A DNA stretch of 15,650 nt from Thiobacillus sp. (GTDB taxonomy: Bacteria; Pseudomonadota; Gammaproteobacteria; Burkholderiales; Thiobacillaceae). The position numbers were made by a program, and so were the translations under genes. Below, one piece after another: positions 1,112 through 15,650 of this stretch. The stretch is from NCBI GenBank assembly GCA_024710445.1, contig JANJUT010000283.1, forward strand, positions 1 through 15,650, in the 5' to 3' direction. Position 1 is the first letter of the stretch. The number at the start of each line of letters is the position of its first letter. The notes below the pieces were generated by a model. It was not told the origin of the DNA. It searched no databases and saw only the letters and a list, made by a program, of their open reading frames with translations.

Positions 1112-1113
1112 GC

Positions 1114-1659: not shown

Positions 1660-2183
1660 GCGCCTGGCTGTGGCAGCTTCGGCAATGGGCACGCGTCCTT
1701 GGCGTGCCGGGCCTGATCGGGCTGGGTTTGCTGGCCACCGCGCTGCTCGTGCAACTGAGCCAGGTCGACTCGCTGCAACAGGCGGCCATTGCGCAGCAAG
1801 CCAGACTGTCGGACCTGCGTCTGGCAGCCACGGTGCGTGAAGTCGCACCAGCGGCGCCGCTCAATCCCCTGGCAAGCCTGCCGCCGACAGGCGAAGCCGC
1901 GCAACTGATTGGCGAACTGGAACAACTGGCGCGGGCGCACGAACTGGAACTGCCGCGCGGCCAATACAGCGTAACGTCGCTCAAGGGCACCGCGCTGCAG
2001 CACTGGCGGCTGGTGCTGCCCATTGAAACCGACTACCCGACCTTGCACGCCTTTTTGGCGGCGGCGCTGGAGCGCTTGCCCAACCTGGCACTGGATGAAC
2101 TGAAGCTGAAACGCGACCGCATCGAATCCGATGAATTGCAGGCCGAACTGCGCCTGAGCCTGTTTGTGGAGGCAGCGCCATGA
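1656..2183 (+). CDS. PilO/GspM-like inner-membrane protein
   Basis: A 175-residue protein with one membrane helix at about residues 15-32 (VPGLIGLGLLATALLVQL), a short likely coiled coil (SLQQAAIAQQARLSDLRLA) and a C-terminal ferredoxin-like domain (ALQHWRLVLPIETDYPTLHA... LALDELKLKRDRIESDELQ). This is the usual layout of PilO/GspM, which pairs with PilN/GspL in the periplasm. ATG at 1656 overlaps the previous stop by four bases (ATGA) and is preceded by GGAGG about 9 nt upstream. The next gene overlaps its stop the same way, so the three inner-membrane genes are translationally coupled. Sequence conservation in this family is low, so the call rests on topology and order. Confidence 0.8.
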   Translation: MSAWLWQLRQWARVLGVPGLIGLGLLATALLVQLSQVDSLQQAAIAQQARLSDLRLAATVREVAPAAPLNPLASLPPTGEAAQLIGELEQLARAHELELPRGQYSVTSLKGTALQHWRLVLPIETDYPTLHAFLAAALERLPNLALDELKLKRDRIESDELQAELRLSLFVEAAP

Positions 2184-2704
2184 ACGACTCCAGGCGGCGC
2201 GCGGTACTGTTTCTGGCACTGGCTGGCGTGGTCGGCTGGTCGGGCTGGCTGGCGATCAACGGCCCGGCCACAGACGACACGAAGATTGAACTGGCAAAGC
2301 CTGTTGCCCAGATGCGAGGCCTTCCAGCCCTCGCACCCGCCACGGCAACCGCTGCTGCACCTGCAAAAATCCAGGAAGCCGCCCCCCGATTGGCGCTCAC
2401 CCAGACCAACCTGTTCCCCGAGCAGACCTGGTATGTGCCGCCGCCCCCGCCACCGCCACTCCGTTATGTGCCCCCGCCGCCCCCGCCGCCGCCCCAGGCG
2501 CCGCCGCTGCCATTCAGCTATATGGGACGCTGGCAGGAAGCCGGGCAGACGACGTACTACCTGACGCGCGGATCGCTGCCGGTCAGCGTGCGCCCCAACC
2601 AGGTTCTGGATGGCGTGTGGCGGCTTGAACCGGTGACCGGCGGCATGCTGAATTTCACCTATATACCGCTGAACCAGACGCGCAGCCTGCGCACAGGAGA
2701 ATGA
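2180..2704 (+). CDS. PilP/GspC-like periplasmic linker with polyproline repeat
   Basis: A 174-residue protein. It has an N-terminal membrane anchor (about residues 8-27, AVLFLALAGVVGWSGWLAI), an Ala/Pro-rich spacer, a duplicated polyproline block at about residues 85-106 (two units starting YVPPPPPPP), then a compact domain of about 65 residues (PFSYMGRWQEAGQTTYYLTR, then GVWRLEPVTGGMLNFTYIPL). The FSYMGR...YYLTRG pattern resembles the homology-region domain of GspC/PilP, which contacts the N0 domain of the secretin. Its place directly before the secretin gene fits that role. The start overlaps the previous stop (ATGA) and has GGAGG upstream. The polyproline block probably acts as a stiff spacer across the periplasm (inference). 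GspC versus PilP is not resolved. Confidence 0.75.
   Translation: MNDSRRRAVLFLALAGVVGWSGWLAINGPATDDTKIELAKPVAQMRGLPALAPATATAAAPAKIQEAAPRLALTQTNLFPEQTWYVPPPPPPPLRYVPPPPPPPPQAPPLPFSYMGRWQEAGQTTYYLTRGSLPVSVRPNQVLDGVWRLEPVTGGMLNFTYIPLNQTRSLRTGE
2432..2497 (+). repeat. 33-bp tandem duplication encoding polyproline
   Basis: Two 33-bp units, 2432-2464 and 2465-2497, each begin TATGTG followed by a run of CCN proline codons. They encode YV plus seven or eight prolines. The repeat lies inside the PilP/GspC-like gene and keeps frame. Confidence 0.8.
2695..2700 (+). promoter_or_regulatory. Ribosome-binding site deciding the TTG start of the secretin
   Basis: AGGAGA ends 5 nt before TTG 2706. No ATG in the frame gives an equally complete lipoprotein signal, so the TTG start is supported. 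Confidence 0.7.
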
Positions 2705-2705
2705 G

Positions 2706-4640
2706 TTGAAACTCACCCACACTATTGGCCTGACCGCCCTGTTGCTTGCGATGACTTTGGCTGGCTGCGCCAGCAAGGGCTTGACCGAAGGCCGGGAATT
2801 GATCGCTTCCGGGCAGGCTGAAGCCGGCATTGCCCGCCTGCGCGCCGGCCTGACCGAAGAACCCGGCAACATCGATCTCAAGATGACCTACCACACCCAG
2901 CGCGAGCGCCTCAGCAACGACCTGCTGGCGCAGGCGCAACAGGATGTGGATGCCGGACGCTTTGATGTCGCCCAGAGCGCGCTGGAAAAAGTGCTCAGCA
3001 TGCACCCGGAAAACCCGCGTGCCAGAACCATGCTCGATAGTCTGGCCACGCTGCGCCAGCTCCAGCAGAACCTGCAGGCTGCCAGCCAGGCGCTGACCAA
3101 AGGCCATCCTGAAGAAGCCGAGCAGGCGGCGCGTTTGATACTGGCACAATCCCCCGGCCACATCGGCGCGCAGGCCTTGCTGCAACAAATCCAGGCTGAT
3201 CGCGCCTCCGATGAACTCGGTTCACGCGAACTGGCTGCGATGTACCGCAAACGCATCACGCTGGAATTCCGGGATGCACCGCTGCGCAATGTGTTCGACA
3301 TGATCGCGCGGCAGTCGGGCATCAATTTTGTGTTCGACAAGGATGTCCGGCTGGATGCGAAAGCCACGCTGTTCGCGCGCAATTCGCCGATATCCGAATC
3401 GATCGACATGCTGCTGGCAACGGGACAGTTCGACAAGAAAGTCGTCAACGCCAACACCCTGCTGATTTATCCCGACCTGCCGCAAAAGAAACGGGTCTAT
3501 CAGGAACTGATGGTGAAAGGCTTTTACCTGGGCAATGCCGACGCCAAGGCCACCATGGCCATGCTGCGCATGCTGGTCAAGACCAAGGATGTCTATGTCG
3601 ACGAACGGCTGAACCTGCTGGTGATGCGCGATACGCCCGAGGCCATTCGCCTGGCCGAAAAAATCATCGCCGTGCAGGACCTGGCCGAGCCGGAAGTGAT
3701 GCTCGATGTCGAGATTCTCGAAATCAAGCGTGGGCGATTCATGGATCTGGGGGTGCAGTACCCGAGCCAGTTTTCGCTGCTGAACACCATAACCACCGAA
3801 ACCGCAACCTCGTCGACCGTAGGCGCTCCGGTTGTCACCACCAGCACCTCGCTTTCGCCCTTGCCTCTCACGCTGGAAAGCCTGCGCCATATCACACGCG
3901 GCAGCATTGCCATCAACAACCCCCAGGTGAATCTGAAAAAAGAAGACAGCGATGTCAACATCCTGGCCAATCCGCGCATCCGGGTGAAAAACCGCGAAAA
4001 AGCCAAGGTCCATATCGGCGACAAGGTCCCGGTCATCACCTCGAACACCACCGCTACCGGCGTGGTGTCGGAGTCGGTATCGTATCTCGACGTGGGTCTG
4101 AAACTGGATGTCGAGCCCAGCGTGATGATGCGCGACGATGTCCAGATCAAGGTCGGTCTGGAAGTCTCCAACATCGTGCGCGAAATACGCAGCAGCAACG
4201 GCACCCTCACCTATCAGATCGGCACCCGCAACGCAGGTACCACGCTGCGGCTCAAGGATGGCGAGACCCAGGTGCTGGCCGGCCTGATTTCGGACGAGGA
4301 CCGCAAATCGGCCAGCCGCATTCCAGGACTGGGCGATATCCCGCTGCTGGGACGCCTGTTTTCCGATCACCGCGACGAACGCAACAAGACCGAGATCGTG
4401 CTGCTGATCACCCCGCGCGTATTGCGCAGCGACGCCACGCGTCAGCCTGCCATGACCGAATTCCGTGGCGGGACTGAAAACGCGATTGGCGGTGGGCTAA
4501 GCTCGCCCTACACCCCGGCGCCGGAACAAGACATTTCGGCACCGCCCTTGCCTCAGGCTGCCCCGGCCGGGCCAGCGGAGGAGCCGGCTGCGCCACCAGC
4601 CGTCCCGGCCGTCCCCGCTCCGCCGGAACCAACCGAATAA
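2706..4640 (+). CDS. gspD: Outer-membrane secretin (GspD/MshL/PilQ family), lipoprotein
   Basis: A 644-residue secretin forming the outer-membrane gate. Visible parts: a lipoprotein signal peptide with lipobox LAGC (Cys21); a TPR-like helical region at about 25-165; an N0/STN-like domain from ITLEFRDAPLRNVFDMIARQ; an N1-like domain around YLGNADAKATMAMLRMLV; and the secretin core with VEILEIKRGRFMDLGVQ, VPVITSNTTATGVVSE, VGLKLDVEPSVM and the signature GLISDEDRKSASRIPGLGDI...LLGRLFS...TEIVLLITPRVLR. A Pro/Ala-rich tail of about 45 residues follows. The N-terminal TPR-like region and the short N-domain set resemble MshL/PilQ-type or Tad-like variants more than classic GspD with N0-N3. Start TTG 2706 is set by AGGAGA 5 nt upstream and one base of spacing from the previous stop. 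The gene symbol is by role only. Confidence 0.93.
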   Translation: MKLTHTIGLTALLLAMTLAGCASKGLTEGRELIASGQAEAGIARLRAGLTEEPGNIDLKMTYHTQRERLSNDLLAQAQQDVDAGRFDVAQSALEKVLSMHPENPRARTMLDSLATLRQLQQNLQAASQALTKGHPEEAEQAARLILAQSPGHIGAQALLQQIQADRASDELGSRELAAMYRKRITLEFRDAPLRNVFDMIARQSGINFVFDKDVRLDAKATLFARNSPISESIDMLLATGQFDKKVVNANTLLIYPDLPQKKRVYQELMVKGFYLGNADAKATMAMLRMLVKTKDVYVDERLNLLVMRDTPEAIRLAEKIIAVQDLAEPEVMLDVEILEIKRGRFMDLGVQYPSQFSLLNTITTETATSSTVGAPVVTTSTSLSPLPLTLESLRHITRGSIAINNPQVNLKKEDSDVNILANPRIRVKNREKAKVHIGDKVPVITSNTTATGVVSESVSYLDVGLKLDVEPSVMMRDDVQIKVGLEVSNIVREIRSSNGTLTYQIGTRNAGTTLRLKDGETQVLAGLISDEDRKSASRIPGLGDIPLLGRLFSDHRDERNKTEIVLLITPRVLRSDATRQPAMTEFRGGTENAIGGGLSSPYTPAPEQDISAPPLPQAAPAGPAEEPAAPPAVPAVPAPPEPTE

Positions 4641-4645
4641 TCGCC

Positions 4646-5122
4646 ATGTCGCTGCAGCGTCGCGGATTCAGCCTGATTGAATTGATGGTCACGATGGCCA
4701 TCCTCGCGCTGCTCGCCAGCGTGGCCGTACCGTTTGCGCAACTGACCCAGCAGCGTTACAAGGAAACCGAGCTTCGCGATGCGCTGCGCAAGATTCGCAG
4801 CGCACTCGATGCCTATCGCCAAAGCGTCAAGGAAGGCCGTGTGGATTCGCCCGCCGACAGCAGCGGCTATCCGCCCAGCCTCGATGTCCTGTGGCAAGGC
4901 GTGGCCGACAAGACCAAGCCGGACGCAAGCAGGATTTATTTCCTGCGCCGCCTGCCGCGCGACCCGCTCTACCCCGACTCGGCGGCCGATCCCGCTTCAA
5001 CCTGGGGACTGCGCAGCTATGCCAGTCCGCCCGATGCCCCGTCAGCGGGGCGTGATGTTTACGACGTGTATTCGCTCTCCCCCGCCACCGGACTGAATGG
5101 CATTGCGTATCGTGAATGGTGA
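4646..5122 (+). CDS. Type II secretion pseudopilin (GspG-like)
   Basis: A 158-residue pseudopilin with a class III leader MSLQRRG, cut before FSLIELMVTMAILALLASVA. Glu at mature position 5 is present, as required for N-methylation and assembly. The hydrophobic helix is followed by a GspG-like stalk (LRDALRKIRSALDAYRQSV), a loop with YPPSLDVLWQG, then LRRLPRDPLYPD, which recalls the LPxDPW motif of GspG. The C-terminus (DVYDVYSLSPATGLNGI) is characteristic of pseudopilins in these hybrid clusters. The start is 5 bases after the secretin stop; the ribosome-binding site is weak, suggesting coupling. It is likely cleaved by a prepilin peptidase encoded outside the window. Confidence 0.9.
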   Translation: MSLQRRGFSLIELMVTMAILALLASVAVPFAQLTQQRYKETELRDALRKIRSALDAYRQSVKEGRVDSPADSSGYPPSLDVLWQGVADKTKPDASRIYFLRRLPRDPLYPDSAADPASTWGLRSYASPPDAPSAGRDVYDVYSLSPATGLNGIAYREW

Positions 5123-5132
5123 CCCCATCTTG

Positions 5133-5510
5133 ATGAACCGGATCCGGCGCGGCTTCACGCTGGTCGAACTCATGGTGGTCATGGCCATCATCGCGCTGCT
5201 GCTGGCGCTGGCGCTGCCGCGCTATTTCAACCATCTGGAAACCTCGCGCGAAACCATCCTCAGGCAGGATCTCGCCGTGATGCGCGACGCCATCGACAAA
5301 TACCATGGCGACCGCGACCGCTACCCTGACAGCCTCGGCGAACTGGTTGATGCGCGCTATTTACGCAGCCTGCCGGTTGACCCCATTACCGACCGGGCAG
5401 ATAGCTGGGTGGCGGTAGCGCCCCCCGGTGGCGAGGCCGGCAACGTATACGACATCAGGAGCGGCGCGCCAGGAACGGCGCGCGACGGCAGCGCCTATGC
5501 CGACTGGTAA
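5133..5510 (+). CDS. Type II secretion pseudopilin (GspG-like, second copy)
   Basis: A 125-residue pseudopilin. ATG 5133 gives the leader MNRIRRG before FTLVELMVVMAIIALLLALA, with Glu5 present. An in-frame ATG at 5097 would add 12 residues and overlap the preceding gene, but the shorter leader is the normal form and is preferred. The mature protein has the pilin helix, RQDLAVMRDAIDKYHGDR, LVDARYLRSLPVDPITD (the GspG-type LPxDP motif) and a C-terminus DGSAYADW. It probably arose by duplication of a GspG-type gene with its neighbour. Ten bases separate it from the gene before, and it overlaps the next by 14 bases. Confidence 0.88.
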   Translation: MNRIRRGFTLVELMVVMAIIALLLALALPRYFNHLETSRETILRQDLAVMRDAIDKYHGDRDRYPDSLGELVDARYLRSLPVDPITDRADSWVAVAPPGGEAGNVYDIRSGAPGTARDGSAYADW

Positions 5511-5997
5511 ATCTGTCCAGTCTGGTTTCACCTATCTGTTCGTGCTGATGCTGATCGCGCTCATCGGCATGGGGCTGGCGGCGGCGGGAAGCCTCTGGCG
5601 CACCGATGCGCAGCGCGCGCGCGAAGTCGAATTGCTGTTCATTGGCAGCCAGTACCGCCAGGCCATCCGCAGCTATTATGAATTCGACCGTGCGCAACCA
5701 CGCTTGCCACAGGGTATCGACGACCTGCTGGAAGACCATCGCCGCCCGGAAATCGTGCGTCACCTGCGCCGTGCCTATCGCGATCCATTCACCGGCAGCG
5801 AGTTTGTGCTCATACGCGATCCCGACACCGAGGGCATCCTGGGCGTTGCCAGCCAGTCGACAGCTGTCCCCTTCAAAACGGCAGGATTCCCACCGGAATA
5901 TGAGGGATTTTCCGGTACCGCCAGTTATGCCGAATGGCGCTTTGTTTTTACGCCTCCCCTCAGCCAGCCGGTTCAGCCACGGCCACCCAAACCCTGA
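5497..5997 (+). CDS. Divergent pseudopilin lacking Glu5
   Basis: A 166-residue protein with leader MPTGKSVQSG followed by FTYLFVLMLIALIGMGLAAA, so the prepilin cleavage site and helix are present but position 5 of the mature protein is Phe, not Glu. After the helix comes RTDAQRAREVELLFIGSQYRQAIRSYYEF, with a stretch typical of a pseudopilin subfamily in betaproteobacterial secretion clusters, then LPQGIDDLLEDHRRP, RRAYRDPFTGSEFVLI and a Gly-rich end. Lack of Glu5 is the hallmark of the tip pseudopilin GspK in T2SS, so a tip or initiating role is possible (inference). The start at 5497 overlaps the previous stop by 14 bases; an earlier in-frame ATG at 5428 would give an implausibly long leader. 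It is the last gene before the hairpin at 6012. Confidence 0.82.
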   Translation: MPTGKSVQSGFTYLFVLMLIALIGMGLAAAGSLWRTDAQRAREVELLFIGSQYRQAIRSYYEFDRAQPRLPQGIDDLLEDHRRPEIVRHLRRAYRDPFTGSEFVLIRDPDTEGILGVASQSTAVPFKTAGFPPEYEGFSGTASYAEWRFVFTPPLSQPVQPRPPKP

Positions 5998-6011
5998 CTG
6001 GCAGCAAAACA

Positions 6012-6041
6012 AAAAGCCCCTGCCAGATGACAGGGGCTTTT
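6012..6041 (+). terminator. Bidirectional rho-independent terminator
   Basis: A perfect 11-bp inverted repeat (AAAAGCCCCTG, loop of 8, CAGGGGCTTTT) lies 14 bases after the last pseudopilin stop. It is A-rich on one side and T-rich on the other, so it can end the secretion operon and also the facing PhoX-like gene whose stop is at 6074. Confidence 0.88.
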
Positions 6042-6073
6042 CCGTGAGGGGCTGAAGCACCCCTCTCGTTTGG

Positions 6074-7453
6074 TCAGTCCTTGTGATGCCCGTGATGCGT
6101 GTGATGACCTTTGCTCTGCCGGGTGATGGCCATGGTCTTGTCGTTGCCGGTGCCGGAATGCTGCACGTTGACGAACAGGGTGTCCGGATCCTTGCCGAAA
6201 TAAATCCCGCTACCCTCGGCCGGCTTGTCCTTCAGCGAGGCGAACAGATGCACGCCGTCCTTGTAGCCGTCGCCGTTGGCGTCTTCCGAACGCGGGTCAT
6301 ACACCCAGATGTCGCTGTAGTCGTTGTCTTCCACCATCCACAGCTTGCCATCAGGGCCGTTGGCCAGGTTGTCAACCTTGGCGAAGCCAGTGGTGGCAGT
6401 TGCATGGTTCTCGTACGGCGTGTTCTTGCCGGACGCGACGACATAGCTGGCGGAAGTCTTTTCACCCAGTTCCACGGCCAGCACGGCGCCGACGTTGTAA
6501 CCGGCAGCGTTCTTGCCGCTGGTGTTGGCGGGGTTGTCGACGTCTTCGCAGGTCAGCGCCACATACAGGGTGCTGTCGATGCGCTCGATGTCTTCGGGAC
6601 GGCAGTACTCGGTGGCGCCAACCGCAGTCGCGGCAGCATGCGCCTTGATCTGGGCCTGGGTCATGTCGAGCGCAACCCATTCGGCAGCGCCGGTCTTGCC
6701 GCCGTTGATCACCTTCAGGGCATACAACTGGCCGCTGGAAAGATCACCGTAGGTGGTCGGCACGAATTTGTAGATCGAACCCTTGCGGTCTTCGTCGATA
6801 ACGTAGACGTTGCCTTCGGCATCGATTTCGAGACCTTCGTGGGCCAGTGCGCCGAGCATGGGACGCACGGTCACGCTCTCGGCGGACATGGGGTCATGCT
6901 TGTCGAGCTTGAGCTCGTACACCAGGCCAGCCTGGGCTTGGGGTGCATCGGGATCGGGGCGCGCAGCGGTGCCGGCTTCCTCGGCGAACAGCACGGTCTG
7001 CCACGGCGTCCAGACGATGCCGTCGAGTGCTTCCCAGTCGGCACGGCCAACGACTTCTTTGGCGATACCGGTCTTCAGGTCCACCACGGACACGGCGCCA
7101 CCACTGCCGCCGTCGTTACGCAATGAATTTCCGTCGTTGCCGATAGCGCCACCGCGCACTTCATGGGTACGGTACAGGTAACGGCCGGCGTGCTTGCCGG
7201 TCTCGTTGACGGTGTTCATGTCCTGCCAGTCGTTGGCGACATAGATATCCAGGTTGGACTCGTCGGAGACGATGGACTGAACATAGCCCCGGGGAATCAC
7301 GTAAGGGGTGGTGGCGATGTCGGCATCATTCTCCATGCCGTACGCTGAGCTGGCGATGGGATTGAACGACATGGGGCCGTTTACGACAGAGTCTGCCTGG
7401 GCATGGGCCGCGAAAACCGCGACCAGGGACAGGGCCAGTGTGGAAATCTTCAT
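6074..7453 (-). CDS. Exported PhoX-like (DUF839) protein with His-rich tail
   Basis: A 459-residue secreted protein of the DUF839/PhoX beta-propeller family, whose characterised members are Ca/Fe-dependent alkaline phosphatases. A Sec-type signal peptide MKISTLALSLVAVFAAHAQA is followed by propeller-like repeats: WEALDGIVWTPWQTVLFAEE, HEGLEIDAEGNVYVIDED, TEYCRPEDIERIDSTLYVAL and LANGPDGKLWMVEDNDYSD. The CRPEDIE segment matches the metal-ligand region expected in PhoX. The protein is shorter than classic PhoX and has no twin-arginine signal. The C-terminus (KGHHTHHGHHKD) is an extra His-rich, likely metal-binding tail. ATG 7453 is chosen over an upstream TTG (7486) because AGGAGA (7460-7465) sits 6 nt before it. 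Phosphatase activity is inferred from family only; a different hydrolase or lactonase-like role is possible. Confidence 0.82.
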   Translation of the reverse strand: MKISTLALSLVAVFAAHAQADSVVNGPMSFNPIASSAYGMENDADIATTPYVIPRGYVQSIVSDESNLDIYVANDWQDMNTVNETGKHAGRYLYRTHEVRGGAIGNDGNSLRNDGGSGGAVSVVDLKTGIAKEVVGRADWEALDGIVWTPWQTVLFAEEAGTAARPDPDAPQAQAGLVYELKLDKHDPMSAESVTVRPMLGALAHEGLEIDAEGNVYVIDEDRKGSIYKFVPTTYGDLSSGQLYALKVINGGKTGAAEWVALDMTQAQIKAHAAATAVGATEYCRPEDIERIDSTLYVALTCEDVDNPANTSGKNAAGYNVGAVLAVELGEKTSASYVVASGKNTPYENHATATTGFAKVDNLANGPDGKLWMVEDNDYSDIWVYDPRSEDANGDGYKDGVHLFASLKDKPAEGSGIYFGKDPDTLFVNVQHSGTGNDKTMAITRQSKGHHTHHGHHKD

Positions 7454-7459
7454 TAAAAC

Positions 7460-7465
7460 TCTCCT
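7460..7465 (-). promoter_or_regulatory. Ribosome-binding site deciding the PhoX-like start
   Basis: AGGAGA on the - strand, 6 nt from ATG 7453. If the upstream TTG at 7486 were used, these bases would be translated as Arg-Arg and falsely mimic a Tat motif. Confidence 0.8.
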
Positions 7466-7492
7466 GAAACTAGTTGTAGTGGGCAAAGGCTG

Positions 7493-7510
7493 GCGGCATG
7501 GCTATGCCGC
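7493..7510. repeat. 7-bp perfect inverted repeat in the nadE-phoX gap
   Basis: GCGGCAT, 4-base loop, ATGCCGC, about 40 bases upstream of the PhoX-like start. There is no T-run on either side, so a terminator is unlikely. It may be an operator or a leader hairpin. The rest of the 142-base gap (7454-7595) shows no promoter or Pho box I can support. Confidence 0.35.
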
Positions 7511-7595
7511 ACCTCGCATTGTTCTCAGGATGTGTTTCGAAGATGTGATGGTTTTGTGAAGCTTGATCAACAGGCCTTCCGGTGAGGAGAAGGTG

Positions 7596-9263
7596 TCAGG
7601 GCAACACTTCTTCGGGCCGGTATTTCGAGGTGATGGGATAACGGCGGTCCTTGCCGAAATTACGCGGCGTGATGCGCGGCCCGGGTGGCGCCTGGCGTCT
7701 TTTGTATTCGGAAAAATCCACCATGCGAATGACCTTGCGCACGATGGCCGCATCGTATCCCAAGGCAACGATGTCGTGCGCCGACAGGTCACGTTCGACA
7801 TAGGCAGCCAGAATCGCATCCAGCACATCGTAGGGCGGCAGGCTGTCCTGATCGGTCTGGTCAGGCCGCAGTTCAGCCGACGGCGGGCGATCGATGATGC
7901 GTTGCGGGATGACCCCGGACAGGCTGTTGCGGTAGTTCGACAGCCGGTACACCAGGGTTTTGGGCACATCCTTCAGCACGGCAAAGCCACCGGCCATGTC
8001 GCCGTACAGCGTGGCATAGCCCGTCGCCATTTCACTCTTGTTGCCGGTGGTCAGCACCAGCGTGCCGAGCTTGTTCGACAGTGCCATCAGCAGCGTGCCG
8101 CGCGTGCGGGCCTGCAGGTTTTCCTCGGTCGTATCGTTAATCGGTGTGGGCTTAGCGTTCGCCCCCTCCCCCACCGGGGGAGGGTTGGGGAGAGGGCTGT
8201 CCGCAAACTCTGGCGCAAGCTGCGCGCGGAAAGTATCGAAAATGGGCTTGATCGCAATTTCGGAATAACGCACGCCCAACCGCTTCACCATGTCGCGCGA
8301 GTCCTCCACGCTGATGGAGGCGGTGTAGTCCGACGGCATCATCACCGCGTGCACCTTGTCCGCACCTAAAGCATCGGCGGCAATCGCCAGGGTAAGTGCC
8401 GAATCGATGCCGCCCGACAGGCCCAGATGCACGCCCTTGAAACCGTTCTTGCCGACGTAGTCACGCACCGCCATCACCAGCGCATCGTAGGCCGCAGCCT
8501 CTTCGCCAGGCAAGGCGTGCCGTGGGCCGCTGCAGGTCGCACCATCCAGTTCCAGATAAAACAGGTCCTCGCGCCAGGCAGGGCATTGCACCACGATCTC
8601 GCTATCGGCATTCATCGCAAACGACGCGCCATCGAACACCAGTTCGTCCTGCCCGCCGACCATGTTGGCGTAGACGATCGGCAGCCCGGCTTCGACGATC
8701 CGCGCGCGTGCAACCCTGGCGCGGTCGTGCTCCTTGTTGAGGTGAAAGGGCGAAGCGTTCGGCACCAGCAACCAGTCCGCGCCTGCCTCCATCGCACGCT
8801 GAGCCGGTCCCGCTTCCCAGATGTCGCCACAGATCACCAGACCGAAGTTCAGCCCGCCGCAGGCAAACACGCAGGGCATGTCGCCGCTATCGAACACGCG
8901 CTGTTCATCGAATACGGAATGGTTGGGCAGATGATGCTTGCGATACACCGTCTCGACCCGGCCACCGCGCAACAGTGCGGCCGAATTGAACAGTTCGTCG
9001 CCGCTGCGTTCGGGGTAGCCCACAATCAGGGCGAGTTCGGGCGGTGCCGCTGCTGCCAGTTGATGCAGCGCCACTTCGCACGCAGCGGTGAAATCGTGTC
9101 GCAGCACCAGGTCTTCTGCCGGGTACCCGCAAATCGACATCTCCGGGGTGAGCAGCAGGTCTGCGCCTGCGCCACGGGCTTCATGCGCAGCCGCCTGCAA
9201 GCGGGCCGTATTGCCCGCGATGTCGCCGACGACGAGGTTGAGTTGGGCAATGCCAAGTTTCAT
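7596..9263 (-). CDS. nadE: Glutamine-dependent NAD+ synthetase
   Basis: A 555-residue two-domain enzyme making NAD+ from deamido-NAD+, ATP and glutamine in the cytoplasm. The N-terminal nitrilase-type glutaminase carries the Glu-Lys-Cys triad: Glu41 (LLLTPEMSICGYP), Lys109 (YRKHHLPNHSVFDEQ) and Cys145 (LVICGDIWE). The C-terminal synthetase has the PP-loop LSGGIDSALT (residues 282-291), LVLTTGNKSEMATGYATLYG, GGFAVLKDVPKT and a C-terminal IIDRPPSAELRPDQTDQDSL. ATG 9263 starts at the conserved MKLGIAQLN; the frame stays open upstream only by chance. It begins 10 bases after the sucD stop, so it is probably in the sucCD operon. Oddity: an in-frame insert at about residues 355-376 (SPLPNPPPVGEG...) derived from a palindromic repeat, in a loop before TTEENLQAR. 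All catalytic motifs survive. Confidence 0.96.
   Translation of the reverse strand: MKLGIAQLNLVVGDIAGNTARLQAAAHEARGAGADLLLTPEMSICGYPAEDLVLRHDFTAACEVALHQLAAAAPPELALIVGYPERSGDELFNSAALLRGGRVETVYRKHHLPNHSVFDEQRVFDSGDMPCVFACGGLNFGLVICGDIWEAGPAQRAMEAGADWLLVPNASPFHLNKEHDRARVARARIVEAGLPIVYANMVGGQDELVFDGASFAMNADSEIVVQCPAWREDLFYLELDGATCSGPRHALPGEEAAAYDALVMAVRDYVGKNGFKGVHLGLSGGIDSALTLAIAADALGADKVHAVMMPSDYTASISVEDSRDMVKRLGVRYSEIAIKPIFDTFRAQLAPEFADSPLPNPPPVGEGANAKPTPINDTTEENLQARTRGTLLMALSNKLGTLVLTTGNKSEMATGYATLYGDMAGGFAVLKDVPKTLVYRLSNYRNSLSGVIPQRIIDRPPSAELRPDQTDQDSLPPYDVLDAILAAYVERDLSAHDIVALGYDAAIVRKVIRMVDFSEYKRRQAPPGPRITPRNFGKDRRYPITSKYRPEEVLP
8164..8184. repeat. Palindromic repeat inserted inside nadE
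   Basis: A perfect 9-bp inverted repeat, CCCTCCCCC, 3-base loop ACC, GGGGGAGGG, within a C/G-run block spanning about 8160-8202. On the coding strand it is read as SPLPNPPPVGEGA, a peptide pattern typical of dispersed GC-rich intergenic repeats. It interrupts nadE without breaking frame. Confidence 0.8.
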
Positions 9264-9273
9264 GTATTGAACT

Positions 9274-10167
9274 TCATCGCGCCGCAAGTGCGGCCTGAAC
9301 GGCCTCGCCCAGCCCCGCCGGGCTTTGCGCCACCACCACCCCGGCGGCTTCGAGCGCGCGAATCTTGGCATCGGCTGTGCCCGCGCCACCGGCGATGATC
9401 GCGCCGGCGTGGCCCATGCGCTTGCCCTTGGGTGCGGTGCGCCCGGCAATGTAGGCCGCAACCGGCTTCTTCATGTTCGAACGGATGTACTCGGCGGCCT
9501 CTTCCTCGCGGCTGCCGCCAATTTCACCCACCATGATGACCGCTTCGGTCTGCGGGTCGGCCTCGAACAACTCCAGGCAATCGATGAAATCGAGCCCCTT
9601 GATCGGGTCGCCGCCGATACCGACGCAGGTTGATTGACCCAGCCCCAGTTGCGTGGTCTGGTGTACCGCCTCGTAGGTCAGCGTACCGGAGCGCGACACG
9701 ATGCCGATCCGGCCCTTCTGGTGGATGACGCCGGGCATGATGCCGATCTTGCATTCGCCCGAGGTGATGATGCCGGGACAGTTGGGGCCGATCAGCCTGG
9801 CGCCGTTCGCCTTGAGTGCGGCCTTCACATTCAGCGCTGCTTTAACTTGAAGCATATCGAGCACCGGAATGCCCTCGGTGATGCAGACGATGATCTTGAT
9901 GCCCGCATCGGCCGCTTCGAGGATCGAATCGGCGGCGAATGCGGCCGGCACATAGATCATCGTCGCCTGCGCGCCGGTCTGCCGCACCGCATCGCGCACG
10001 GTGTTGAACACCGGCAGATTGAGGTGCGTCTGCCCGCCCTTGCCCGGCGTCACGCCGCCGACCATCTGTGTGCCGTAGGCGATCGCCTGCTCGGAATGGA
10101 ATGTGCCCTGCTTGCCGGTGAAGCCCTGGCAGATCACTTTGGTGTCTTTGTTGACCAGAATACTCAT
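9274..10167 (-). CDS. sucD: Succinyl-CoA ligase, alpha subunit
   Basis: A 297-residue alpha subunit of succinyl-CoA synthetase (TCA cycle, ADP/GDP-forming step between succinyl-CoA and succinate). It carries the CoA-binding N-terminal Rossmann domain ([32 protein letters not shown]), [41 protein letters not shown] and the phosphohistidine loop [10 protein letters not shown] (His253). Compared with the E. coli protein the frame up to the active site is six residues longer, which is exactly explained by a tandem [12 protein letters not shown] duplication at residues 108-119. The start overlaps the sucC stop by four bases (ATGA on the - strand). It is co-translated with sucC and probably nadE. 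Confidence 0.97.
9811..9846 (-). repeat. 18-nt tandem duplication in sucD with third-position divergence
   Basis: Two adjacent 18-nt units (9846-9829 and 9828-9811, - strand) encode VKAALN and VKAALK. All six codon pairs differ, and every difference is at the third position (GTT/GTG, AAA/AAG, GCA/GCC, GCG/GCA, CTG/CTC, AAT/AAG). Confidence 0.75.
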
Positions 10168-11324
10168 GCTGCTGCTCCCACTGCGCGCTTTGCCGCATCC
10201 GTCAAACTTTCTGCCGCAATGATCGCCAGTCCCGACTCAGCCAACAAGGCCCGGCCCTGTTCCGCGTTGGTACCTTCCAGCCGCACGATCACCGGCACCT
10301 TCACGCCGACTTCTTTCACCGCCTGGATGATGCCTTCGGCAATCACGTCGCAGCGCACGATGCCGCCGAAGATGTTGATCAGAACGGCACGCACATTGGG
10401 GTCGAGCAGGATGATCTTGAAGCCCTGCGCCACGGTCTCCGGGGTGGCGCCGCCGCCGACATCGAGAAAGTTGGCCGGGGTGCCGCCTTCCAGCTGGATC
10501 AGGTCCATCGTCGCCATCGCCAGCCCGGCGCCGTTGACCATGCAGCCGATATTGCCGGTCAGCGCGACGTAGTTCACGTTGGCGGCATTGGCTGCGGCTT
10601 CCTTGGCGTCAATCTGGCTGTCGTCGCGCAGCTCGGCCAGCGCCTTGCGACGATACAGCGCGTTGTCCTCAACGCTCATCTTGCAGTCGAGCGGCAGCAC
10701 GCGGTTGTCGCTGGTCACCACCAGCGGATTGATTTCGAGCAGGCTCAAATCGTTGGCGAGGAACAGGCGATACAAAGCGGGCAGCAGGCGACAGAAATCC
10801 TTGTAGGCGTCGCCCTTCAATTCCAGCGCGAACGCCAGCGCGCGACACTGGAAATCCTGCACGCCGAGCAGCGGGTCGCAGATCTCGGTCAGCACTTTTT
10901 CCGGGGTGGCATGGGCCACTTCCTCGATGTCCATGCCGCCAGCGGCCGACGCCACGATCGCGACCCGTTCGGTTTCACGGTCCACCAGCAGCGACAGGTA
11001 AAGCTCGCGTGCAATCGGCAGGGTTTCTTCCACCAGCACCTGATTCACCGGCTGGCCGTCGGGTGCGTTCTGGTTGGTCACCAGTTGCTTGCCCAGCAGG
11101 CTCGCCGCCATCGCGCGCACATCATCAAGGCTTTTGACGACCTTGACGCCGCCGACCTTGCCGCGCCCGCCGGCGTGGATCTGCGCCTTGACCACCCAGG
11201 CCTCGCCGCCCAGTTCGTTAGCCGCAACTGCAGCCGCGTCGGCGCTTGCCGCAGCGATACCACGTGGCGTGGTAATGTTGCCTGATCGCAATAGTTGTTT
11301 GGCCTGGTATTCGTGCAGGTTCAT
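10164..11324 (-). CDS. sucC: Succinyl-CoA ligase, beta subunit
   Basis: A 386-residue ATP-grasp subunit that, with SucD, forms succinyl-CoA synthetase. The canonical N-terminus [12 protein letters not shown] fixes the start at 11324. The ATP-grasp domain shows [43 protein letters not shown] and [14 protein letters not shown]. The C-terminal CoA-ligase domain shows [44 protein letters not shown] and VIVRLEGTN. Length equals the E. coli protein within two residues. No clear ribosome-binding site is visible, and the start codon lies five bases from the divergent start of the COG3146 gene, so its promoter must lie inside that gene. It overlaps sucD by four bases. Confidence 0.97.
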
Positions 11325-11329
11325 GTTTG

Positions 11330-12592
11330 ATGGACGCTAAGCAAAACGCGCATTTTGAAGCAAAGCCCGCCGATGCGGAAGCCGCAGGCACCGTCATTCG
11401 AGTGATTCCACGCATGGCCGACCTCGATCCGGCAGCCTGGAACACCCTCGCCGGCGAATCGCCCTTCGTGCAGCATGCCTTTTTGCATGCGCTGGAAACC
11501 ACCGGCTGCGTCGGCCCCGACATCGGCTGGGAGCCGGTGCACCTCGCCCTGTTTCGCGATGGCCAGCTTGAAGCCGCCATGCCGCTTTACGTCAAGCACC
11601 ACTCCTGGGGCGAGTTCGTGTTCGACTGGGCCTGGGCCGACGCCTACCGCCGCCACGGCCTCAACTACTACCCCAAGCTGGTGTGCTGCGTGCCCTTCTC
11701 GCCCGTACCCGGTCCGCGCCTGCTGGCGAAGAACGACGACGACCGCGCCACGCTGATCCAGGCCGCGCTCAAGCTCACGCAGGACATGGGGTTTTCCTCC
11801 TTCCACATCCTGTTCCCGACCGAGCCCGACCATGCGGCACTCAACGCTGCCCCACTCGCACCGCTCGGGGACTCCGACTTGCCAGGGGCTAAAGCCCCTG
11901 CAAGATCGTATGCACCGTTAATGCACCGCAGCGGCTTCCAGTTCCACTGGAATAACGCCGGCTACGCCAGCTTCGATGACTTTCTGATGGCGATGACGCA
12001 CGACAAGCGCAAGAAAATCCGTCAGGAGCGAAAGAAGCTGGACAAGCTCGGCGTCACCTTCCGCTGGATCGAAGGCCGCGACAGCACCGACGAAGACTGG
12101 GACCATTTCATGCGCTGCTACGCCGACACCTACGCCCGCCACCGCAGCGACCCGCACCTCAACCGCGCCTTCTTCGCCGACCTGCGAACGAACATGCCGG
12201 ACAACGTGGTGCTGATCATGGCCGACCGCAACGGCCTGCCCATCGCCTGCTCGTTCTGCATCAAGGACAGCCAGCGGCTCTACGGCCGCCACTGGGGCAC
12301 GCTGGAATACGTCCCCGGCCTGCACTTTGAAACCTGCTACCAGCAAGGCATCGAATACGCGATTGCCCATGGCCTGCAGGTATTCGAAGGCGGTGCGCAA
12401 GGCGAACACAAGCTCGCGCGGGGACTGGTGCCCACCGCCACGCATTCGTGGCATTGGCTGGAGCATGAGGAATTCCGGAATGCGGTTGACCGCTTCCTGG
12501 AACGGGAAACCGACGCGATTGGACATTACATGGATGAGATGGAGGGACCGTTTCGTCGTGAGCCTGCTCCACCCACCGAACCGGCCGCTTAA
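11330..12592 (+). CDS. COG3146/DUF482 FemAB-GNAT-like acyltransferase protein
   Basis: A 420-residue cytoplasmic protein of the COG3146 (DUF482) family, distantly related to FemAB/GNAT acyltransferases and often labelled a putative peptidoglycan biosynthesis or N-acetyltransferase protein; its substrate is unknown. Recognisable family segments are LDPAAWNTLAGESPFVQHAF near the N-terminus, FVFDWAWADAYRRHG, LNYYPKLVCCVPFSPVPGPR, ILFPTEPD, FHWNNAGYASFDDFL, DKRKKIRQERKKL, LYGRHWGTLEYVPGLHFETC and FEGGAQGEHKLARGL. An insert encoding about GDSDLPGAKAPARSYA (near residue 183) comes from a palindromic repeat. The start is uncertain: ATG 11330 (with TTG 11327 beside it) is adopted, but the conserved part begins about 25 residues later, so GTG 11402 or ATG 11414 are possible. 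No good ribosome-binding site is seen for any of them. Confidence 0.85.
   Translation: MDAKQNAHFEAKPADAEAAGTVIRVIPRMADLDPAAWNTLAGESPFVQHAFLHALETTGCVGPDIGWEPVHLALFRDGQLEAAMPLYVKHHSWGEFVFDWAWADAYRRHGLNYYPKLVCCVPFSPVPGPRLLAKNDDDRATLIQAALKLTQDMGFSSFHILFPTEPDHAALNAAPLAPLGDSDLPGAKAPARSYAPLMHRSGFQFHWNNAGYASFDDFLMAMTHDKRKKIRQERKKLDKLGVTFRWIEGRDSTDEDWDHFMRCYADTYARHRSDPHLNRAFFADLRTNMPDNVVLIMADRNGLPIACSFCIKDSQRLYGRHWGTLEYVPGLHFETCYQQGIEYAIAHGLQVFEGGAQGEHKLARGLVPTATHSWHWLEHEEFRNAVDRFLERETDAIGHYMDEMEGPFRREPAPPTEPAA
11878..11904. repeat. Palindromic repeat inserted inside the COG3146 gene
   Basis: CTTGC, one extra C, AGGGGCT, AA, AGCCCCT, GCAAG: a 12-bp imperfect palindrome with one bulged base. It lies in a loop region of the protein and keeps the reading frame. 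Its arms share eight bases with the terminator at 6012-6041. Confidence 0.75.
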
Positions 12593-12710
12593 GCAGTCTA
12601 TCCAAAGCGCACAACGATCTTCCGCTTCTCGGCCAATCCGGCCGTTGGAGGTGGCCCGGCTGAGTGGCCGGTATAGTGCAGGCTGCTGTCGTTGCGGCCC
12701 AATCAGACGC

Positions 12711-12729
12711 AAATGTCGCGGACATTTTT
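12711..12729. terminator. Possible weak terminator or operator between convergent genes
   Basis: AAATGTC, GCG, GACATTT followed by TT: a perfect 7-bp inverted repeat 118 bases after the COG3146 stop and 5 bases after the RNA-ligase stop. It could end both transcripts, but the stem is short and AT-rich. The rest of 12593-12734 holds several short GGCC-based hairpins (for example near 12639-12653) and no gene I can support. Confidence 0.4.
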
Positions 12730-12734
12730 GACCG

Positions 12735-13433
12735 TCATTCCATAGCCCCTGCTGAATAGTCGATGCGATTCCACTCTATCGCCCGCTTGCGCCAGTGGCT
12801 GTCGATGGCCTGAGTGAAATCGGGGCGAACCAGCTTGGCGCGGGCTTCGCACCAGTCGGCCGATTCGCGGCGAATGACCACGCCTTCCAGCGGGCCTTGG
12901 CGGTAATGGCTGGGGGTGTTTGCGACCAACTGCCTTAATGCGGAAGTCGTGGTTTTTCCCTGTAGCACCTGCGACACTGTCATCACCCCCGCACTTCTTG
13001 CCAGCGCATTGCGGCGCGAACTGCTCCAGAAGCGGCCTGCACTGCGGTCATACACATCAAACAGCAGAAACCAGTCCGGCAGCGCGGCGTAGTCCAGCGA
13101 ATGGCGCGCAGCACACCACTCGCCAAAGAGAATCAGGTTGGGCGTGAGCACCGCGCGTAAGCCTACGCCGTGTTGTGCCAACCAAGCGGGCAAGCGGGCA
13201 AACTGCCCAGCATGGGGCTCCGCCAGATATTGCCCCCGGTTCTGCGCACGCAGGCCACCATCCGGGGCGAGAGACAGGCCGATGTTTGCGCCGTCCAGCT
13301 TTTCCTCCACCACCACATCACCCACAAGCAAGGCAGTCACCTCATTGGGTGACAACACCTTGTCATCGCGCGGAGAGCCTTCACCCAGCCAGGCAAGGTG
13401 CGGGGTGTGGGGGAAACGAAAGAAGTCGGTCAT
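12735..13433 (-). CDS. Minimal ATP-dependent RNA ligase (Rnl2-like nucleotidyltransferase)
   Basis: A 232-residue protein with the covalent nucleotidyltransferase motifs of ATP-dependent nucleic-acid ligases: motif I EEKLDGANIGLS with nucleophile Lys45, motif III LFGEWCAARHSL, motif IIIa FLLFDVYDR, motif IV LEGVVIRRE and motif V AKLVRPDF. This set fits the T4 Rnl2-type RNA ligase family. There is essentially no extra C-terminal domain, so it is a bare catalytic core. Such enzymes join 3'-OH and 5'-phosphate RNA ends through an adenylated intermediate. It is the last gene of the - strand module: its ATG is 3 bases after the PIN gene's stop, implying coupled translation. Base composition is nearer to the chromosome than the two genes upstream. 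A DNA-nick substrate cannot be excluded. Confidence 0.85.
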   Translation of the reverse strand: MTDFFRFPHTPHLAWLGEGSPRDDKVLSPNEVTALLVGDVVVEEKLDGANIGLSLAPDGGLRAQNRGQYLAEPHAGQFARLPAWLAQHGVGLRAVLTPNLILFGEWCAARHSLDYAALPDWFLLFDVYDRSAGRFWSSSRRNALARSAGVMTVSQVLQGKTTTSALRQLVANTPSHYRQGPLEGVVIRRESADWCEARAKLVRPDFTQAIDSHWRKRAIEWNRIDYSAGAME

Positions 13434-13436
13434 GAA

Positions 13437-13970
13437 TCACACCGGCAACGCAGGCAAAGGCTTGCCGGGAAACTTGTTGCTATAAAACCGGCAAGCGTCG
13501 TCAGGACACAAGAACTCGACTCGAACGCCCTTCACCTGAAGGGCGGGCCACCAATCCAGCCACTTGCAGTCGGCCGCTTGCCAAATCGGTGGCTTTTCCA
13601 CATGAGCATGGGCCACTGCGGCAAACATACGATCAGGTGCATCGAAGTTGGGTTCCAGCGCTGGATCAGGAAACTCAGCAAAACAATTTGTCGCTGTTTC
13701 TGTCAGCGACACCTGTTCCACCCGCTTTCTACTCCCTGCCTCGCGCAATAACCATTTAAGGAATACATCGCCAACTCCTTTGGGTGGGTTGAGGCTTGTT
13801 TTATGTTGATATTCACCCAGTATCCGGTAGCCATCATCAATCACGGTGATGCCCGACTTTTGCATCGCCTGCAAACGCCGCACACATTCGGTTACACAGT
13901 CCGTCGATACATCAGCATGCTGACCATTGGCCACCAACAATACATTGGTATCAATGACTGCCCGCGTCAC
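13437..13970 (-). CDS. PIN-domain nuclease-like protein
   Basis: A 177-residue protein beginning TRAVIDTNVLLVANG, the first strand of a PIN domain with Asp7. Other candidate metal ligands are Glu53 (ILGEYQHK), Asp110 or Asp113 (NFDAPDRMFAAVAHA) and Asp134 (AADCKWLDW). PIN enzymes are Mg/Mn-dependent nucleases, many acting on RNA (VapC type). It is larger than typical VapC toxins (about 130 residues), and no VapB-like antitoxin gene adjoins it. The start is GTG at 13970, overlapping the ATPase stop as GTGA; an ATG start is not available nearby. It sits between an ATPase and an RNA ligase, so it is most likely the effector of that module (inference). Base composition is lower in GC than the housekeeping genes. 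Confidence 0.82.
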   Translation of the reverse strand: MTRAVIDTNVLLVANGQHADVSTDCVTECVRRLQAMQKSGITVIDDGYRILGEYQHKTSLNPPKGVGDVFLKWLLREAGSRKRVEQVSLTETATNCFAEFPDPALEPNFDAPDRMFAAVAHAHVEKPPIWQAADCKWLDWWPALQVKGVRVEFLCPDDACRFYSNKFPGKPLPALPV

Positions 13971-15361
13971 TTGCCTGCCTCCTTGGCGAGGTCTTTCTTA
14001 CGCTGCATAGCAGCCAAGGTACGGCCCGCAATGTCTGCCATTTCATCGCCGAAGAAATTTTCTGGCCAGTTTTCGATTTCGCCAAACATGTTCAGGCGCA
14101 GTGGTTCCAGCTCAGTAGCGGAACCAGCACGGCGGCAGAAGTACACGGCTACCTCTTCGGGCGCTACCGTGCCTTCAGCAACGCGACGTTGCAGGCGGTT
14201 GAGAAAATGTTCGGAATGGCTTTCAACAATCAATTGAACATTTCGTTCCTTGCCATTTTCGCGGGCTTGCGTGGCAGAAATAAACACATCGGCCAGCTCG
14301 GCCTGCACCTGAGGATGCAAATGAATTTCTGGTTGTTCCATCCAGATAGTGGAATTCGGTGGGCAATAGAACGACTGAACCAGTGCCGGCAAGACCTGGG
14401 AGACACCAAACCCAACATCGGTAATTTTCACCTCGCTGGCTGTTGCATGCGTTTTGACCACAACCTCATATTCTTTCCTGCCTTCAGCGACAGGCTTCAC
14501 CGCAAAGCTTTCGATGATTCCCAGGTCTTTGAGCCATTGCGCGATAAAGGCATCAAAGCGTGTCAGATGTCGCTTAGCGCCACGATTAATTTTCCGGTCT
14601 TGCGCACTTGCTGCCAGAATGGCGGCCACGGCAAACTCACCCTTTTGCCCAACGCTTTCAGGCGTCTCCCCTGACCATGAATAGATGCGTTTTGGGTGCT
14701 CGCGTAGTGGCCCAAGGTAGTAAACACTATTCAGTGCCGCCTCCGTATTCAGTGCAAAATCCGACAAGAATTCCGCATTCTGAAATCGAGCACGGCTTTG
14801 GTCGGAGATACGATAAAACTTGTCTGGCTCATCCAGTGGCCAACTTCTACCCGTATTGCGTACAAACTTGTTCTCGTTTGATGCAATTTCAAGTTTGCCT
14901 TTTGCATCCCTGCTGTAATCAACTGCAAGCTGGGTGTCTTTATCACGCAGGAGTTGATAGGTCAGCTTATCTATTCTCGGCTGCTCCTTGGCATCCGCCG
15001 AGAGCGCGACTAAAAGCCTTAATTCATCGCCCGCAAATTTCTTCTTGCTGAGCGGGTCTCGCACCTCCAGATCTTTACCTGGCGTTTTCCATCCCAGCTC
15101 AAATTCCAGCTCACTCTGCAAATCGTGGTTATGCAGGCATTCTTTAAACGTGCCCAAATCAATCAAGGCATTTTCGTCACCCAAATGGAGTGGGCGTTTT
15201 CGATCAGCAGATAAGGTGGTTTGTTTGAGCGCCAGCAATAAATGGCCAAGGCTGCTTTTGCCCGCGCTATTGGCTCCAAAAATTACCGTTAAGGGGGCGA
15301 GACGAATGGCACCCGTGTCTTTCCAGGCTTTAAAGTTTTTAATGTGCAGTGTGGTTAACAT
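13967..15361 (-). CDS. AAA15-type ABC-like ATPase (resembles DUF3696 proteins)
   Basis: A 464-residue ATPase of the OLD/AAA15 group, seen as the sensor or motor in many defence operons. Motifs: N-terminal LHIKNFKAWKD, Walker A FGANSAGKSS (residues 28-37), signature-like VGFGVSQVLPALVQ, Walker B TIWMEQPEIHLHPQVQ with catalytic Glu, and the switch region LIVESHSEHFLNRLQRRV. The C-terminus (MFGEIENWPENFFGDEM) resembles DUF3696. There is no TOPRIM nuclease domain, so a separate nuclease is expected; the PIN gene follows with a 4-base overlap. ATG 15361 is chosen: AGGAGA lies 9 nt upstream and TGATG couples it to the preceding methyltransferase-like frame. The frame is open upstream to 15562, but that part is the methyltransferase tail in another frame. 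GC content is clearly lower than in the housekeeping genes. Confidence 0.88.
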   Translation of the reverse strand: MLTTLHIKNFKAWKDTGAIRLAPLTVIFGANSAGKSSLGHLLLALKQTTLSADRKRPLHLGDENALIDLGTFKECLHNHDLQSELEFELGWKTPGKDLEVRDPLSKKKFAGDELRLLVALSADAKEQPRIDKLTYQLLRDKDTQLAVDYSRDAKGKLEIASNENKFVRNTGRSWPLDEPDKFYRISDQSRARFQNAEFLSDFALNTEAALNSVYYLGPLREHPKRIYSWSGETPESVGQKGEFAVAAILAASAQDRKINRGAKRHLTRFDAFIAQWLKDLGIIESFAVKPVAEGRKEYEVVVKTHATASEVKITDVGFGVSQVLPALVQSFYCPPNSTIWMEQPEIHLHPQVQAELADVFISATQARENGKERNVQLIVESHSEHFLNRLQRRVAEGTVAPEEVAVYFCRRAGSATELEPLRLNMFGEIENWPENFFGDEMADIAGRTLAAMQRKKDLAKEAGK

Positions 15362-15650
15362 CAGTGCAATTCTCCTGTTTCCAATTGGCCCCACGCGGCC
15401 AGCACCAGCCGTTGGGTGCGGTACTCGCCATATTCTCGCATTTCTTTGTTTTTGAGCACGCGGAAGGTTTCTGACGGGTAGTCGGCCCCATGATGTCGGC
15501 GGGGTCGAGGATGTAGCGCAGTTCATCGCGGGGCAGGCCGTAGAGATTGGCGTAGTAGGCATCGAGTTCGGCGCGCAACCGGGCGCGGCGGGTGGGGTTG
15601 AAGCGACGTCTCCCCCTATTTGAGTAGCACATAGCTTTGGAGTCCAATCC
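15361..15650 (-). pseudogene. C-terminal tail of an Eco57I/type IIG-like methyltransferase, frameshifted
   Basis: The tail of a large protein entering from beyond the window end. One frame reads FNPTRRARLRAELDAYYANL, then YGLPRDELRYILDPADIMGP. The neighbouring frame continues it with YPSETFRVLKNKEMREYGEY and RTQRLVLAAW, ending at 15361. This composite is the C-terminus I associate with large Eco57I-type (COG1002-like) restriction-modification methylases. One base appears missing near 15483: the + strand reads GTCGGC where GTCCGGC would keep frame (IMGPDYPSETF). Without correction, translation would run on to 15339. The corrected stop and the ATPase start form TGATG. The first residues in view (before FNPTRR) do not look like the family. 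The identification is from memory of the tail motif; the catalytic domain is not visible. Confidence 0.6.
15371..15376 (-). promoter_or_regulatory. Ribosome-binding site for the ATPase start
   Basis: AGGAGA on the - strand, 9 nt from ATG 15361 and inside the end of the upstream frame. It supports the internal start and coupling. Confidence 0.7.

Follow-up and report, generated by a model that had tools for sequence, protein, structure and literature searches.

PrrC is a tRNA nuclease with an ATP-binding cassette (ABC) ATPase that is silenced by a linked type I restriction enzyme and freed by a phage peptide, and bacteriophage T4 counters it with a kinase/phosphatase and an RNA ligase (PMC2610378). 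RloC excises the wobble nucleotide, which has been proposed to resist phage repair, and Geobacillus carries its rloC gene within a transposon, next to what is left of an hsdR gene (PMC2610378). PARIS pairs the tRNA nuclease AriB with an ABC ATPase, AriA, which keeps it sequestered until a phage protein binds (PMC12409363). The PADLOC database furthermore lists HEC-03 (a 'Hma-embedded candidate' from guilt-by-embedding work), in which a PIN protein (HEC-03A) and an ATPase (HEC-03B) stand side by side; several HECs are active in assays and HEC-06 is named, HEC-03 being unmentioned in the passages searched (PMC12988326), and PMC13356809, in the passage searched, gives the places of HEC-03 detection and nothing further. 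Here we describe a cassette of three genes, encoding an ATPase, a PIN-fold nuclease and an ATP-dependent RNA ligase (the trio), on contig JANJUT010000283.1 of Thiobacillus sp. (assembly GCA_024710445.1, 76.6% complete). The window analysed, positions 1-15650, is the entire contig, and sequence is readable to 15650 only. The three genes are inherited together as a mobile unit, and at a probability of about 0.5 we read them as an anti-phage module in which a PrrC/PARIS-like ATPase would restrain a PIN ribonuclease and the ligase would be able to reseal the cuts made by it. The features concerned are the following:

13967..15361, minus strand: AAA_15/DUF3696 ABC-type ATPase, 464 residues (PADLOC HEC-03B; from Pfam and PADLOC), probable sensor or gate
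13437..13970, minus strand: PIN-fold nuclease, 177 residues (PADLOC HEC-03A; from PADLOC and predicted structure), probable effector
12735..13433, minus strand: minimal ATP-dependent RNA ligase, 232 residues, adenylyltransferase domain alone (PF09414)
15361..15605, minus strand: two-frame C-terminal relic of an Eco57I/DrmMI-like DNA methyltransferase, a non-working gene
15372..15376, minus strand: AGGAG within the methylase relic, read as the likely ribosome-binding site of the ATPase gene
15604..15650, minus strand: end of an IS3-like insertion element, inside which the contig stops (motif shared with the same-genus genome G022)
11327..12592, plus strand: conserved chromosomal neighbour gene at the island edge, outside the cassette

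In the window, the ATPase and PIN genes overlap by 4 nucleotides (GTGA), 3 nucleotides separate the PIN and ligase genes, and AGGAG lies 10 nucleotides before the ATPase start, which was set at 15361 because relatives begin with MLTxLxIKNFKAW. The ATPase matches Pfam AAA_15 (E 1.3e-23) and DUF3696 (E 1.2e-9) as well as PADLOC HEC-03B (E 2.6e-135 over residues 1-457), and scores with the PADLOC models NsnB (4.6e-59), PDC-M55A (6.6e-57) and AriA (4.1e-26). For the PIN protein, HEC-03A matches over residues 4-161 (E 2.6e-25), and its structure was predicted with a pLDDT (a per-residue confidence score) of 96.9; a second aligner placed VapC toxins as best alignments, and Foldseek alone returned no match in the PDB at E 0.001. 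The ligase matches PF09414 (E 2.5e-32), and the residues of what we take to be motifs I (KxDG), III, IIIa, IV and V are invariant in 45 aligned sequences. Its alignment with the T4 Rnl2 and Naegleria Rnl chains extends to residue 206-211 of 232; it has the adenylyltransferase fold and conserved residues in common with these enzymes and with REL1, whereas all three are longer and carry an extra domain, and the C-terminal accessory domain of Rnl2-type enzymes is missing from it. Against the Rnl3 model TIGR01209 it reaches 16.7 bits, the cut-off being 136.9. A preliminary description of the window, made from its letters alone, had pointed to Walker residues, PIN acidic residues and ligase motifs, and these are indeed invariant or nearly so across the aligned relatives.

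To follow the three genes beyond the window, its PIN protein was compared with the contigs of 84,980 species genomes and the best 80 of 83 loci were kept (loci carry L numbers, genomes G numbers), so that these loci were chosen by likeness to the window PIN. Contig room for all three genes is present in 77 of them (L059, L074 and L084 end inside or beside the PIN gene), and in 76 of these 77 the ATPase, PIN and ligase genes follow each other in the same order and on the same strand, the exception being L053, which is without ligase. In L052 and L067 the contig stops within one of the outer genes, the PIN gene is in two frames in L070, and it is without its start in L087. The commonest spacing is a 4-nucleotide overlap, at 39 of 74 measurable ATPase-PIN junctions and 38 of 74 PIN-ligase junctions. 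Among 106 loci examined for intactness, all three genes are full length in 83 (a single match over >85% of the profile) and 12 show no ligase, two of which (L059 and L084) are at contig ends. Pairwise distances were compared over 80 loci with three full-length genes, a set that differs from the 80 scan loci and includes plasmids and later loci; they correlate with r 0.79 for PIN-ligase, 0.63 for ATPase-PIN and 0.59 for ATPase-ligase, values as high being reached in 0 of 1000 permutations, and common host descent contributes to them.

A less biased sample came from a HEC-03A search of genomes of relatives (199), class (369) and phylum (398), which are overlapping draws. Matches were present in 20 distinct genomes besides that of the window, and no other genome of the same genus matched HEC-03A in the relatives sample. 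The ATPase adjoins the PIN gene in 20/20, an adjacency whose absence the preliminary description had set as its refutation; the ligase is next in 12 and is not next in 8 (G092, G099, G129, G268, G437, G576, G630 and G740). With these counts and the 76 of 77 scan loci, a chance cluster of separate genes, which that description had kept as its main alternative, fails for the ATPase, PIN and ligase genes. They support the conclusion that the three form a co-inherited operon.

The reverse search, with the ligase at E 1e-15, bears on whether the ligase would be a general RNA repair enzyme hitchhiking with an ATPase-PIN pair. It gave matches in 15 other genomes of 398. Four of the 15 (G421, G740, G763 and G871; loci L133-L136) hold longer ligase relatives of 307-347 residues, with no ATPase or PIN model within 1.5 kb, and in L105, L106 and L108 a ligase 58-60% identical to that of the window is paired with quite different PIN and ATPase lineages (PIN 26-32% identical), both of which suit a hitchhiker. 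However, in each of the 10 other genomes whose short ligase is full length, PIN and ATPase immediately precede it; the eleventh (G205) has a piece of ligase next to an HNH gene. The gene overlaps and distance correlation likewise speak for a fixed partner, so that we consider a hitchhiking ligase unlikely.

The ATPase and PIN protein of the trio are recognisable as the listed candidate HEC-03, which the preliminary description, finding the set unfamiliar, had missed; the ligase has no model in PADLOC-DB 2.0.0, and the complete trio was not found in the literature searched, whose coverage of relevant papers is incomplete. The HEC-03A model fits ligase-free copies far better (G099 3.9e-72, G092 1.4e-70, G740 1.5e-74) than that of the window (2.5e-24), and the Hma embedding does not apply to the window, where a methylase relic alone is present; the host operon of close relatives is non-Hma. 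The ligase, as a third gene, widens the existing candidate.

Upstream of the ATPase, the preliminary description had placed a methyltransferase tail as a fourth operon gene. The three other genes are real and were correctly placed, with the GTGA overlap and the 3-nucleotide gap; the methylase turned out to be no member. It consists of two relic pieces in different frames (15480-15605 and 15364-15504), which are 79% and 74% identical to residues 1252-1293 and 1286-1332 of the methylase in L079 and match 12 and 13 frames of the scan loci. Together they represent the C-terminus of an Eco57I/DrmMI-like methylase (cluster c4), with homology starting at about 15602-15605, and a search with a full-length relative found none of the remaining methylase in the assembly, which is 76.6% complete. 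The adjoining motif, 15604-15650, recurs at two places in G022 with unrelated sequence on the other side, one copy beside an IS3-like orfA frame and the other beside the decayed start of such a frame; a shorter part of it is found at C33:8169. The IS3 label of this insertion sequence (IS) is our presumption from the look of orfA. The methylase is outside the cassette and the window copy is a dead, frame-broken remnant cut by an IS end.

A system of four genes, with the methylase marking self DNA as the preliminary description had supposed, can draw on loci such as L009, L066 and L079, in which a complete homologous methylase precedes the cassette. Yet a long methylase (>750 model positions) is upstream in 11 of the 80 scan loci (L009, L010, L013, L014, L021, L032, L038, L056, L066, L079 and L080), some loci having too little upstream DNA to tell, host systems of other kinds are found, and the truncated, frame-broken window copy contradicts self-marking in this genome; of the expected four-gene co-occurrence the ligase part held and the methylase part did not, and we regard such a system as highly improbable. 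In 8 of 80 loci a short tail or an internally deleted remnant of the methylase stands directly before the ATPase (L008, L021, L031, L036, L040, L067, L069 and L086, L021 having the long methylase as well), as does a tail remnant in the plasmids L109 and L110; L026 begins inside the methylase and was left unjudged, and in several more loci the upstream stretch is short. Since the relic holds the AGGAG before the ATPase, methylase tails may persist for that reason. The frame before the ATPase in L067 (1314-1751) combines a match to the start of the HNH family with one to the region of the methylase family's last 28 positions, which gives the impression of recombination between host-operon remnants.

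The trio is a mobile unit, often inside or beside DNA restriction systems. The fullest host operon (L009, L066 and L079) comprises an MZB protein, a DpdE/DrmD-like helicase, the methylase, the trio and an HNH nuclease, with the first gene extending to the edge of the locus; its families were taken from L079, where the methylase matches Eco57I/DrmMI/type IIG models and the helicase scores 2.3e-212 with DpdE versus 3e-57 with HmaA. In L011, L012 and L018 (3 of 80 scan loci; families from L012) the trio stands between hsdS and hsdR in the order hsdM-hsdS-trio-hsdR, and in L088 an ATPase-PIN pair without ligase stands between type III mod and res genes. Gammaproteobacterial loci (L049-L055 in part, L059) share a neighbourhood with a Na+/H+ antiporter, and most remaining loci share no neighbour cluster. 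A family of 647-740 residues is encoded ahead of the ATPase gene, and behind the methylase gene in loci that have one (L010:6586-8580, L014:6592-8535, L056:6592-8571, L053:81-2078, L080:3283-5505 and L082:221-2362); it lies between methylase and ATPase in L010, L014 and L056, and likewise with more genes in L080. Its L056 member, the sole one scanned, shows a weak likeness to Lamassu LmuB (3.6e-12), and the host slot of the trio may take this family as a second insert.

Mobility is further apparent from plasmids: PIN matches were obtained in 12 plasmid records, of which 6 are typed conjugative, and of 6 plasmid regions opened 5 carry the trio, three of those typed conjugative. One of those carrying the trio is a Rhodococcus (Actinomycetota) plasmid with a PIN protein 31% identical. 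The Acinetobacter soli plasmid L112 holds helicase-methylase-ATPase-PIN-HNH with no ligase, its methylase and ATPase being in several frames and its PIN and HNH genes whole. These plasmid records, the many different neighbours and a PIN fold closest to VapC toxins would fit a selfish addiction module, which keeps plasmids or restriction islands with ATPase and ligase as antitoxin functions and for which phage defence is a side effect or absent. The recurrent restriction-modification slots argue against this, as does the tight spacing of the three window genes, which leaves no space for an antitoxin gene of the VapB kind, and we hold it to be improbable.

In the window itself, the island edge is sharp. 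Fifty other genomes of the genus match the island-edge stretch, a few by a short piece, and in 11 of 11 loci read their similarity stops at 12555-12624; past that point 5 of the 11 have the same membrane-protein frame, as judged by eye. Across the ATPase and PIN genes the G+C content is 0.49-0.54, down from about 0.62. Positions 1-6000 of the plus strand hold a cluster resembling type II secretion or an MSHA-type pilus (secretin-like 2706-4640, pseudopilin-like frames), also judged by eye.

The history of the ligase was followed on a PIN tree of 101 rows, midpoint rooted, with unsettled bootstrap and a very long branch for L114. The ligase-free loci L088, L089, L093, L098 and L099 cluster, four on a starred branch and the fifth at 97/33, and 5 of the 8 ligase-free HEC-03A genomes fall in this clade. 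The main group has L094, also ligase-free, at its base and contains L053, L090 and L112, and L107 sits in a small distant group with three ligase-bearing loci. The presence or absence of the ligase changes 6 times on the tree, compared to 9.7 in shuffles. This suggests that an older ATPase-PIN pair acquired the ligase and then mostly retained it, a direction that we infer from the midpoint root. The ATPase is split in two frames in L112 and looks whole in L053 and L090.

The tight PIN-ligase pairing could also reflect a cut-and-reseal weapon, in which PIN would excise or cut tRNA or another RNA on phage attack and the ligase would seal a shortened, rearranged or circular product beyond phage repair. 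Of the three gene pairs, PIN and ligase show the tightest co-inheritance, some ligase relatives carry the name RNA circularization protein in one source, and the excision by RloC, with its proposed resistance to repair (PMC2610378), offers a precedent. But one clade does without a ligase, other loci have lost it sporadically, and the trio includes no second nuclease, which makes this a quite doubtful account.

A compact ATPase of 331 residues stands beside full-length PIN and ligase genes in L041, L043 and L045; conservation covers its first 45-47 and last 118-130 residues, and the centre (about residues 48-326) is swapped for a much shorter region, probably a natural case of sensor-domain exchange or loss. 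The ATPases of L112 and L113 are 32-33% identical to that of the window (a better-matching end piece in L112 aside) and their PIN proteins about 58%, and these low-identity ATPases plus the compact variant suggest that the sensor part has been exchanged.

Under the favoured reading of an anti-phage module, the ATPase would detect infection, directly or through the inhibition of an adjacent restriction-modification system, and until then would hold back the PIN ribonuclease. Once triggered, PIN would cut an essential RNA, most likely tRNA, and translation would stop. PIN enzymes probably depend on metal ions and yield 5'-phosphate and 3'-hydroxyl ends, and an Rnl2-type ligase would join such ends without kinase or phosphatase. 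Because the ligase could act on such ends as they are, and because no end-healing enzyme belongs to the trio itself, we take the ligase to be a matched repair or safety enzyme for PIN, which might neutralise leaky cutting and let survivors recover.

This arrangement resembles PrrC in the EcoprrI locus in that an ABC-type ATPase is combined with an RNase, and in the position between hsdS and hsdR in L011, L012 and L018, whereas the trio of the window is not inside a type I restriction-modification locus. PrrC is one protein, whereas the trio has separate ATPase and PIN proteins. PrrC moreover uses a HEPN nuclease and leaves cyclic phosphate ends, and the RNA ligase in its case is supplied by the phage (PMC2610378, PMC12409363). 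With PARIS the trio shares an ABC ATPase plus a small nuclease, and AriA models match its ATPase; yet AriA is not the best match, the PARIS effector AriB is a Toprim protein instead of a PIN fold, and the passages of PMC12409363 describe no ligase. HARP RNase P with Rnl3 also links a PIN-fold RNase to an ATP-dependent RNA ligase, but these loci have no ATPase and are typically bidirectional (PMC12153264), and the trio ligase is far below the Rnl3 cut-off. MADS was rejected, as the MAD3 ATPase model gives 22.3 bits with a cut-off of 420, and so was VapBC: there is no small VapB gene, and the neighbours of PIN are the 464-residue ATPase and the 232-residue ligase, overlapping or 3 nucleotides apart.

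Several points weigh against the anti-phage reading with ligase repair. To our knowledge no activity, target or phage assay of the trio exists. A Pfam search gave no family match for the window PIN protein, and among 56 PIN relatives 4 match PIN_3 and 2 match PIN, all weakly. In L053, L090 and L112, members of the main ligase-bearing group, the ligase is missing beside a full-length PIN gene, so the ligase is not indispensable, and a separate ligase-free clade exists as well. Many copies of the trio adjoin no recognised restriction gene. The 5'-phosphate/3'-hydroxyl chemistry of PIN is not stated in the literature passages searched; in a VapC study, RNA fragments to be sequenced underwent a kinase step converting 5'-OH ends to 5'-phosphate (PMC12321070), and most ribotoxins leave 5'-OH and cyclic phosphate ends, with some metal-dependent exceptions (PMC4411300).

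Classically, tRNA is cut by the bacterium and the RNA ligase comes from the phage; here one bacterial cassette carries both the cutter and a ligase suited to the probable product ends of PIN, and some copies occupy the same restriction-system slots as the classical case. If the repair reading is true, the trio would provide a means of arresting translation reversibly, complete with its own off-switch, and a directly testable substrate would be at hand for this family of bacterial ATP-dependent RNA ligases.

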